Of a stretch of 32,488 nt of DNA, positions 9,633-12,786 are shown piece by piece (the stretch's first letter is position 1; each line of letters opens with the position of its first letter). The position numbers and the translations under genes are program-made. Location of the stretch: NCBI GenBank assembly GCA_944324555.1, contig CALUWU010000104.1, positions 1 to 32,488 on the forward strand, given 5' to 3'. The stretch comes from an uncultured Desulfovibrio sp. GTDB lineage: Bacteria; Desulfobacterota; Desulfovibrionia; Desulfovibrionales; Desulfovibrionaceae. The notes beneath the pieces were generated by a model. That model searched no databases and had not been told where the DNA came from. It saw nothing but the letters and a program-made list of their open reading frames with translations.

Positions 9633-9718
9633 CTGGGGGGGAAGGGAAACCCCTCTGCTAGCGCGAGAGGGGTTTCCCTTCCCCCCCAGCCCCCCATCCC
9701 TTCCCCAGCGCGCTTTTT
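9633..9718 (+). repeat. Long hairpin repeat, GGGGGAAGG family, copy 1
   Basis: A perfect 23-bp inverted repeat (9633-9655 with 9667-9689) with an 11-base loop. The arms carry GGGGGAAGGG and CCCTTCCCCC, and the right arm is followed by AGCCCCCCATCCCTTCCCC and then a T run. The same arm core and the same GCCCCCCATCCCT flank recur at 27514-27580. It sits between convergent genes (thrC and the helicase-exonuclease gene), so it may be a bidirectional terminator that belongs to a dispersed repeat family. Confidence 0.8.
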
Positions 9719-12700
9719 CAGCCCTGAAGGCGCGACGTTTCCTCCCCGGAAAAATCGACTGGAACGCGGACGCGCTGTCCGGCCTTGTTGCGGAATAAAA
9801 TAAATCCGTGCTCAAGGCCGAAACGATACAGTCGCATGGTCAGCAGCACGTCGTCCCGACAGTAGGCCTCAATCTTGTCAAGGCGTCCTTCCTTCCACCA
9901 GCGCAGGGCTTGCAGCCCGTCGGCGCTCTTGGGCGCGTCCAGAGTAGCCTGCGCCGCATTGTCCAGAGAAACGCGGTAGTGCAATCTATCCTGAATACGC
10001 CGCAGAAGATCGACGTGCGGCAGCGTCTTGAGGTCATAGGGGGCGAAGGGCTGAAGAACCGCACAATCGAAACGCAGCGAATTAAAGCCGACAACAGCGT
10101 CCGCTGAACGCAACAGGGTAAAAAAGCCGTCAAGAGCATCCTGGGTATAGCTGACACACTCCTGCGTCAGGCTGTCATAGGCGACAAGAATACTGACGCC
10201 CATTTTCCCCGCAAGATGCCAGCCGCCGACCTCCGCCGCGCTGCGTCGTGTTTCAACATCAAAGACGATAAATCGTTCTGGAATACGCACAGCAGCCTTG
10301 CCGCGTTCCAGATGTTCCACGGGAAACATACCACCTTCCGGCGAATCGCATTGTTCCACGAGAAACATCTTTCGCTCTTGTTTTCCATTATCTTTGCCGT
10401 CGACCTTTTCCTTGTCAGAAAAATTTTCCGCCGGGCTGATAACCAGCGCGGCGGCAAAATGTTCGCCTTCAGAATCCGCACCTTCTTCCAGCACATCCTG
10501 CAACAATGCGACCGCCCCGCTCTTGCTTATGGGCCGGTTCCCTGAGCCGCATTTGGGAGAATGCACGCAGGAAGGACACCCGTCCTCGCACGGGCAGGAC
10601 AAGATAACGTCGCGCGTTATGGCAAGCAGATCGCGCGCTCGTGGAAAAATCTCCCGCGTCAGGCCGGCGCCGCCGGGCAAGGCGTCGTAAATAAAGACGC
10701 AGGCATGGCCGACCTGCGCGTGCAGCGGCGTGGAAATCTCTCCAAAGTCGTTGCGATCCGCCATGACTTCCAGCGGCAGCATCCCGATAGCCGCATGCTC
10801 AACGGCATGAATGCTGCCCATGAAATGCAGAAAGCGTTCCTCCAGCCGCTCGCGACAGGCATCGGGAAAGACAAACCACAGGCCTTCCGTTTCAAAGACA
10901 TGCGGCGGCGCTTCCAGAGGCACGATTGTCAACAGCCTGTTGCCCGACGAAGAACGTTTCTCATAGCCCGTCACCCTGTCGGTAATCCGCAACCGTCCGT
11001 AGCAGACAACGGCGCGGCCGGCGGCGCGGCGCGCCTTCTCCTCCAGGATTTCCGTACTCTTTGATCCCCGCGTGCGCGTAAAATAGGAAACTTTCTCCGG
11101 CCGCGCCTTCACGCATCCCCGCGCCGCGTCCAGTTCCTCAATGACATACGACCGCCCCCTGTGCAGATAAACGGCCCCCGGATGCGTCTCCCTCCAGGCC
11201 CGGAAGCTGTCCACCGAACCGATTACCTTCCCTTCCGTATCCTCAATCACAAGGCTGCGGCCGGCGCCGCGCAGATCGACCAGACGCTGCGGACGCTTGC
11301 GGGAAGCAAGCCACTGCTCGCCGTCGGCCGAACGCAGCGCATCGCCATTGCGTTCCAGCTCTTTCAGCGCCTCGCGCGCGGCGGCGCTCCGCAGCCAGGG
11401 TTCGTCCCGCCGCAGGGGCTGTTCCGCCGCGGCGCACTCCAGATGACGCGCCAGAATGGCGGGATTGTCCGGATTGACGACCGCCAGCTCCGGCGGCCGG
11501 GAAAAGAAATCTTCAGGATGGCGCAGAAAATATTGATCCAGGGCGTCGTCCCCGGCCACCAGCACGACGGCGGATTCCCGCAGGGCGCGCCCCACGCGCC
11601 CGCCGCGCTGCAAGGTCGCCGTTACCGTGCCCGGATAGCCGACGAGAATGCAGACGTCCAGCCCGCCAATATCTATCCCAAGTTCCAGGGCGCTGGTGGA
11701 AATGACGGCCAGCAGCTCCCCCGAGGCCATGCGCGCCTCTATCTCCCGCCTTTCCTCCGGCAGGAAGCCCGCCCGGTAGGCGGAAATTCGTCCGGCAAGC
11801 GGCCCCTCCACCGCTCCGGCCCACAGGCTCACAAGTTCCGTCATGCGCCGGGAGCGGCAATAGACTATCGTGCGCAAGCCCCGCGCGACGGCCGCCTTGA
11901 GCAGATCGATGGCGGCGCTTGCCGGACTTTGCGACGGGTCGAGAAAGATATAGTGCCGCGCCCCCTGCGGCGCCCCGGACTCGCGAATGACCGCGGGGGC
12001 GCGCCCGCCCTCCGTCTCCGTTCCCGGCGCCGGCAGGCCTGCCAGCGCCGCCGCTAGTTCGCCGGGATTGCCGACCGTCGCCGTGCAGAAAATGAAGACG
12101 GGATCGGCGCCGTAACGCGCCGCCAGACGGGACAGACGGCGAAAGACGCCCGCCATGTGCGCCCCGAAAACGCCCCGGTAAACGTGCGCCTCGTCAACGA
12201 CAATGTGGGAGAGGCCCGCCAGAAAGGGGGCCCACTGCTCATGATGCGGCAGAATCCCCAGATGCAGCATTTCAGGATTGCTGACCAGAACGGTCGGGGG
12301 CTGGCGGCGGATCTTGCGCCGGGCATAATCCGAAGCGTCGCCGTCATAAAGCGCAATGGAGGGACGCGCCTCCTCTGGCCAGGCTTCCGTCAGGGCCCGG
12401 AAGGCCGCCGCCTGATCCTGCGCCAGCGCCTTGAGCGGGAAAAGATACAGCGCCCGCGCGTCGGGGTCCCGCAGGAATTCGGCCAGCACCGGCAGGGTGT
12501 AGACAAGGCTCTTGCCGCTGGCCGTGGGAGTGGCAACGACAATGCTTCTGCCGGAACGGACCAGATCCGTCGCTTCGGCCTGATGACTGTAGAGGCTTGC
12601 GCTTCCCTGCTCCAGCCCCCGTTCCCGCAAGGCCTTTTCTATGGCCTGCGGCCACGGCAGGCGGCAGCGTCCCGGCGCGGCTTCCCGCGCGGGCAGACAG

Positions 12701-12786
12701 CGATGATGCCGCACCTGCCCGCCCAGCCGCTCCGAAGCCAGCAGCGCGCGCACATACTCGCCCACGTCGCCCTGTATCAAACGCAC
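9718..12786 (-). CDS. MrfA-type DEAH helicase fused to an MrfB-type DEDD exonuclease
   Basis: A 1022-residue DNA-repair protein. Residues 1-785 are a superfamily 2 helicase of the YprA/MrfA type: Walker A TPTASGKS at 86-93, DEAH at 198-201, STSALELGIDIG and QRGGRVGR in the second RecA domain, and a zinc-binding cysteine cluster (C731, C733, C737, C740, C746). After a charged, flexible linker (about 790-835) the C-terminal 184 residues form an RNase H-like 3'-5' exonuclease with D843 and E845 (FDVET), D907 (NSLRFD) and Y975/D979 (YCRDD), a DEDDy set. In Bacillus subtilis these are two adjacent genes, mrfA and mrfB, which repair mitomycin C damage independently of UvrABC; here they are one chain. 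The start is GTG at 12786, preceded by GGGAG. The linker DNA is visibly less GC-rich and carries two parS-like sites. Confidence 0.92.
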   Translation of the reverse strand: MRLIQGDVGEYVRALLASERLGGQVRHHRCLPAREAAPGRCRLPWPQAIEKALRERGLEQGSASLYSHQAEATDLVRSGRSIVVATPTASGKSLVYTLPVLAEFLRDPDARALYLFPLKALAQDQAAAFRALTEAWPEEARPSIALYDGDASDYARRKIRRQPPTVLVSNPEMLHLGILPHHEQWAPFLAGLSHIVVDEAHVYRGVFGAHMAGVFRRLSRLAARYGADPVFIFCTATVGNPGELAAALAGLPAPGTETEGGRAPAVIRESGAPQGARHYIFLDPSQSPASAAIDLLKAAVARGLRTIVYCRSRRMTELVSLWAGAVEGPLAGRISAYRAGFLPEERREIEARMASGELLAVISTSALELGIDIGGLDVCILVGYPGTVTATLQRGGRVGRALRESAVVLVAGDDALDQYFLRHPEDFFSRPPELAVVNPDNPAILARHLECAAAEQPLRRDEPWLRSAAAREALKELERNGDALRSADGEQWLASRKRPQRLVDLRGAGRSLVIEDTEGKVIGSVDSFRAWRETHPGAVYLHRGRSYVIEELDAARGCVKARPEKVSYFTRTRGSKSTEILEEKARRAAGRAVVCYGRLRITDRVTGYEKRSSSGNRLLTIVPLEAPPHVFETEGLWFVFPDACRERLEERFLHFMGSIHAVEHAAIGMLPLEVMADRNDFGEISTPLHAQVGHACVFIYDALPGGAGLTREIFPRARDLLAITRDVILSCPCEDGCPSCVHSPKCGSGNRPISKSGAVALLQDVLEEGADSEGEHFAAALVISPAENFSDKEKVDGKDNGKQERKMFLVEQCDSPEGGMFPVEHLERGKAAVRIPERFIVFDVETRRSAAEVGGWHLAGKMGVSILVAYDSLTQECVSYTQDALDGFFTLLRSADAVVGFNSLRFDCAVLQPFAPYDLKTLPHVDLLRRIQDRLHYRVSLDNAAQATLDAPKSADGLQALRWWKEGRLDKIEAYCRDDVLLTMRLYRFGLEHGFILFRNKAGQRVRVPVDFSGEETSRLQG
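10313..10328 (+). promoter_or_regulatory. parS-like ParB binding site 1
   Basis: TGTTCCACGGGAAACA matches the near-universal chromosomal parS palindrome TGTTYCACGTGRAACA at 15 of 16 positions; the single difference is the T of the right half-site. It lies inside the helicase-exonuclease gene, where the reverse strand encodes the peptide MFPVEH, a variant of the MFHVEH-type peptides that parS sites encode when they fall in genes. A second site starts 39 bases away. Confidence 0.6.
10352..10367 (+). promoter_or_regulatory. parS-like ParB binding site 2
   Basis: TGTTCCACGAGAAACA, again 15 of 16 to the parS consensus, with the mismatch at the same position as in site 1 (A here, G there). The two sites are in the same orientation, 39 bases or 13 codons apart, and encode MFLVEQ and MFPVEH in the flexible linker of the host protein, where amino-acid sequence is likely under little constraint. 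Confidence 0.6.

Follow-up and report, generated by a model that had tools for sequence, protein, structure and literature searches.

Chromosomal ParB loads at parS sites, closes there as a CTP-dependent clamp and slides into the adjoining DNA. The ParB-coated origin domain is segregated by ParA, and SMC is loaded there. Mismatched as well as intragenic parS sites are known in Pseudomonas aeruginosa, whose ParB accepts two mismatches in a site and binds more strongly if one of the arms has been left intact (PMC4368675). Half-sites are bound by several ParB proteins (PMC7022226), and the NBS differs from parS by two bases (PMC7383237). The two probable sites described here are a new example of the mismatched and intragenic kind. 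The titles found in a literature search gave nothing on parS in Desulfovibrio; the survey by Livny and colleagues might contain an earlier prediction.

The window, by which we mean the whole analysed stretch of 32,488 nucleotides, contains on its minus strand a gene of 1022 codons (9718–12786) that by its domain matches encodes a helicase joined to an exonuclease. The helicase part comprises a DEAD/DEAH helicase, an HRQ1-type winged helix and an MrfA Zn-binding (MZB) domain, and the other part an RNase_H_2-type exonuclease domain. In Bacillus subtilis the helicase MrfA and the exonuclease MrfB are described as the products of two genes (PMC11194089). In 9718–12786 the MrfA-like and MrfB-like parts make up a single polypeptide, a form also found in those orthologs of the genus whose matches span both parts. 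Two parS-like sites lie between these parts. Site H1 (10313–10328, plus strand, TGTTCCACGGGAAACA, which reads TGTTTCCCGTGGAACA on the coding strand) and site H2 (10352–10367, plus strand, TGTTCCACGAGAAACA) each agree with the parS consensus TGTTYCACGTGRAACA at 15 of 16 positions; the mismatch falls on consensus position 10 in both, and one arm is intact. They stand on the same strand, 39 bp from start to start and hence with 23 bp in between, and their codons specify MFPVEH (at 10313) and MFLVEQ (at 10352). The Pfam MZB match extends to residue 741, and residue 876 is the first of the RNase_H_2 match. Of the linker between them, the part at 10276–10437 (minus strand, about residues 784–837) is diverged and gapped outside the two sites. 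The two 200-base segments that include H1 and H2 have GC contents of 0.51 and 0.53, against 0.545–0.72 in the other segments of the gene, the lowest of which adjoin the sites. When the window was scanned with TGTTYCACGTGRAACA allowing up to 3 mismatches, H1 and H2 were the only matches; shuffled versions of the window gave 0.15 matches on average, and none of the 100 shuffles reached two. The first-pass annotation of this DNA had reported the two 16-mers with their shared mismatch, their orientation, the encoded peptides and their place in a comparatively GC-poor stretch between two enzyme domains, and had held such a pair to be very unlikely by chance; all of this is borne out, with the spacing it gave being that from start to start. 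A tandem duplication or a mobile repeat found no support, the repeat unit found being 17 nt long and the pair together with one site before parA being the only matches in the genome at up to one mismatch.

Among 79 genomes of the genus, a match to the protein is present in 68. In all three close relatives with the gene (G098, G022 and G020, 85% identity) the pair is kept at its spacing of 39 bp. Across the four species H1 is invariant at 16/16 positions, and the invariant run is exactly the 16-mer; H2 is invariant at 12/16, departs from the consensus at 2 positions in two of the three relatives, and is drifting. Outside the sites the linker of the three relatives is only 29–34% identical to that of the window, with gaps, and the four species agree in 15 of 103 ungapped columns. 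Since other parts of the gene contain nine invariant runs that are longer, what matters is how the sites differ from the linker around them and not the length of the run. The pair is the only candidate footprint that was found without using the motif. At more distant loci (L113–L138, at most 76% identity) none of the 26 had a match at up to 3 mismatches; a scan restricted to the linker, covering 25 of these 26 since no linker could be made out in L128, gave a best match with 4 mismatches. In a further relative, L069, the 450-nt stretch taken held two matches with 3 mismatches. Among the loci scanned the sites are seen solely in the four-species clade.

The genome of the window (G000) is a draft of 2.89 Mb in 192 contigs and is 88% complete. 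At up to one mismatch it contains, apart from the window pair, a single further site, TGTTTCACATGAAACA, which has a CACATG centre and begins 34 bp before parA. The chromosomal parA and parB lie on contig C67, a different contig from that of the window, with the start of parB 1.2 kb past that of parA. A perfect parS was found in none of the four assemblies of the clade (88, 99, 91 and 79% complete). At up to two mismatches there were 10 matches in the genome of the window versus 2 for the reversed pattern, and 9 versus 7 in G098 (the assembly that is 99% complete), 12 versus 3 in G022 and 8 versus 2 in G020. With the two central bases left free (TGTTYCACNNGRAACA) the genome of the window gave 4 matches and the control 1. 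We also noted a second full-length ParB in G022 (L195, contig C236), 51% identical to that of the window genome and accompanied by its own parA and a parS-like site; its recognition region is that of G066, so that it may be contamination.

Since the genome of the window is a draft, its position relative to the origin can be judged only indirectly, by synteny in relatives. Seven genomes of the set consist of one contig, and all of them but G102 have a match to the protein. In these six (G006, G092, G062, G065, G089 and G021) the gene is without exception 79–234 kb from parB, which corresponds to 5–13% of the half-chromosome, as expected had the window, as earlier proposed, come from the ParB-bound origin domain. 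In G006 and G062, the two genomes sampled for GC skew, the skew changes direction near parB, to within the sampling steps of 140–163 kb. The genes adjoining the other near-parS sites are 12–301 kb from parB, excepting an nrdJ-like gene at 510–774 kb; in the genome of the window this gene and an sfsA-like gene share one 58-kb contig. In the six closed relatives, matches at up to two mismatches numbered 26, against 35 for the reversed pattern, and therefore their number alone shows nothing. Within 10% of the half-chromosome from parB, there were 13 of the 26 real matches versus 4 of the 35 control matches, and 8 of these 13 are parA sites. As a separate observation, each of the six one-contig genomes has a lower-scoring DnaA-family match about 16–20 kb from parB, the best one being far away; in the genome of the window such a match is found about 16 kb from parB (C67:24239–25201). 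All these DnaA-family matches, best and lower-scoring, stay under the cut-off of the model.

To place the central mismatch we compared the sites before parA across the genus. The 64 parB loci used come from 63 genomes, out of 72 in which ParB was matched (G085, G030 and G099 are among the genomes outside this sample). The stretch from G011 has no parA, and that from G005 has no site at up to 3 mismatches. The other 62 loci divide into 38 with a CATGTG-type centre, 16 with a perfect site, 4 with a pair of TGTTTCCCGTGAAACA and 4 of other kinds. TGTTTCCCGTGAAACA carries the central variant of the window, and its pairs, 23–24 bp from start to start, stand before parA in the piger-type genomes G006, G070, G091 and G092. 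At least two sites precede parA in 28 of the 64 loci, some second copies having 3 mismatches, and the spacing is mostly 21–45 or 71–76 bp, and 39 bp once. An exact search with TGTTYCMCGTGRAACA matched 34 of 79 genomes, against 1 for the reversed control. Among the matches listed, 13 were of the C-variant: 8 in the pairs before parA, 2 in the linker (G000 and G022), 2 in G080 and 1 in G035, on the contig that also carries the parA sites and 24 kb away from them; the linker sites of G098 and G020 appear in the TGTTYCMCGTGRAACA counts, outside the matches listed. The first-pass annotation had left open whether the shared mismatch reflects a preference of ParB in this lineage or decay; that four piger-type genomes have this central variant before parA speaks for a preference. 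We also compared the residues of ParB that correspond to positions 173, 179, 184 and 201, which were taken from PMC7383237 and placed by alignment; 25 of the 64 ParBs were not picked up by the residue motif and were left unscored. The ParB of the window genome has R/A/Q/G, the parS-binding R..G class, as have the four ParBs that go with a CCCGTG pair, but R/A/Q/G is also found in ParBs whose parA sites have a CATGTG centre or are perfect, and the class therefore does not by itself predict that this variant is accepted. The parA site of the clade itself has another centre, CACATG.

Other near-matches in the clade were less informative. Taking all conserved matches at up to two mismatches as evidence had to be rejected, because sites B, D, E and G lie within coding DNA that is conserved together with its flanks and because one identical reversed-pattern 16-mer, a control match with 2 mismatches, recurs in 3 of the 4 clade genomes. 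Site C (C124:7185, TGTTTCATATGAAACA), which follows an mtnA-like gene and was aligned through its flanks by BLAST, is identical at 16/16 positions in four species versus 50/120 in the flanks. There TGTTTCATATGAAACA is an invariant part of a hairpin (L170:2186–2201, L180:2547–2562, L183:2582–2597 and L194:1446–1461) whose arms change in step in the four species, with energies of −18.6 to −20.4 kcal/mol that none of 200 shuffles equalled. Given the matching changes of the arms, a role in RNA is possible, and TGTTTCATATGAAACA may be a variant of parS, belong to an RNA hairpin, or do both. Site F (C151:56583), after the sfsA-like gene, keeps 13 of 16 positions versus 14 of 142 in the flanks, figures which are partly circular since the windows compared were centred on the motif. 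Independently of these sites, a repeat of about 140–150 bp was seen in many copies in the clade genomes (L105, L174, L176, L178, L185, L188, L190, L191, L193 and others), with cross-matches of about 72–94% identity.

The question of what selection has preserved in the linker, the DNA or the peptide, is not trivial, because the peptide is conserved as well. The repeated peptide xFPVEx might itself be the conserved element, for example as a linear interaction motif, with the resemblance to parS as a by-product: F-P-V-E-H is found in 4 of 4 species at H1 and nearly so at H2. In the alignment of the same gene, codons for these amino acids are identical at rates of 0.57 (F), 0.48 (P), 0.39 (V) and 0.35 (E), and by the product of such rates the chance that all codons are identical, given the amino acids, is about 0.04 for H1 and about 0.008 when the F and V codons of H2 are added. 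Synonymous conservation beyond the peptide is therefore modest when taken by itself. Most of the replacements that did occur, M/V, E/K and H/Q, fall outside the 16-mer or on a degenerate R position and leave the consensus intact, the exceptions that break it being one P/L and one H/R. Together, codons and replacements favour a constraint on the DNA without proving it, and the two sites look conserved as DNA. A peptide motif would also leave aside that both copies match at 15/16 a known 16-bp target in a genome that encodes a chromosomal ParB, that the gene is origin-proximal in relatives and that the same central variant stands in the DNA upstream of parA in sister species. Hence we consider the peptide reading improbable.

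Still less credit is due to the view that H1 and H2 are decayed remnants of formerly perfect parS sites without present function. That no site in the clade is perfect, and that H2 has 2 mismatches in two species, would agree with it, but H1 is invariant at all 16 positions within a linker of low identity, and the central variant occurs at parA in four other species. Moreover, the distant linkers were scanned without finding a site, which makes a gain in this clade more likely. Chance resemblance within ordinary conserved coding sequence could draw on the recurrence of the reversed-pattern 16-mer, but hardly deserves belief when two matches never arose in the 100 shuffles, even at 3 mismatches, and when the linker has diverged nearly everywhere except at the sites.

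Hence H1 and H2 are very probably imperfect but working secondary parS sites in the origin domain. We suggest that at these points, in an interdomain linker under little constraint within an origin-proximal repair gene, nucleation of the chromosomal ParB, whose gene lies beside parA, would occur as a secondary event. On H1 or H2 ParB might load, form its CTP-dependent clamp and then slide along the adjoining DNA, where it could add to the ParB-coated origin domain and so to segregation by ParA and the loading of SMC. The binding of ParB, its loading as a clamp and whatever part the sites may play in segregation or in the loading of SMC are what we infer from the DNA. The checks proposed with the first-pass annotation came out mostly in favour of its interpretation. 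It had been suggested that the linker was recruited as a centromere; a secondary parS pair is supported, but the term is too strong since the site before parA is likely the primary centromere. As a more tentative idea, which we would not yet favour, the whole centromere of the clade might consist of imperfect, asymmetric parS sites spread over a few hundred kb around the origin. A centre-tolerant ParB would read them, and some would be placed in protein linkers that must meet the demands of two codes simultaneously; such sites would mostly have one intact TGTTYCAC arm and a relaxed centre. The pair is a clean example from nature of how a ParB site has probably left its footprint within coding DNA, and it leads to the prediction that ParBs of the genus accept altered centres (CATGTG, CCCGTG). 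If this were true, searches for perfect parS would miss the centromere in many genomes, as the site before parA is perfect in 16 of the 63 loci that hold parA.

With the chromosomal parS of P. aeruginosa the sites share the 16-bp palindrome and its consensus, the presence of several sites, the proximity to the origin, as judged from relatives, and a chromosomal parAB. The clade differs in that no perfect site was found in its four assemblies, and the window pair in its mismatches at central position 10 and in its location within a barely conserved interdomain linker. The window sites fit the pattern of mismatches with an intact arm described for P. aeruginosa (PMC4368675).

There is also a likeness to the NBS of Noc. 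H1 has C for A at a position that is probably among the two by which NBS and parS are told apart. On this mapping the pair has at most one NBS-specific base, in one arm of one site; in an NBS such bases would be expected in both arms. The ParB of the window genome has none of Q173, K179, K184 and R201 (it has R, A, Q and G), its score on the NCBIfam Noc model, 228.8 bits, lies below the cut-off of 315, and the Noc/NBS reading was rejected for this ParB. A further likeness is to the pairs of the piger-type genomes, where TGTTTCCCGTGAAACA also stands in tandem and ParB has the same four residues; the difference is one of place, the putative sites there lying directly before parA and the window pair in a helicase gene.
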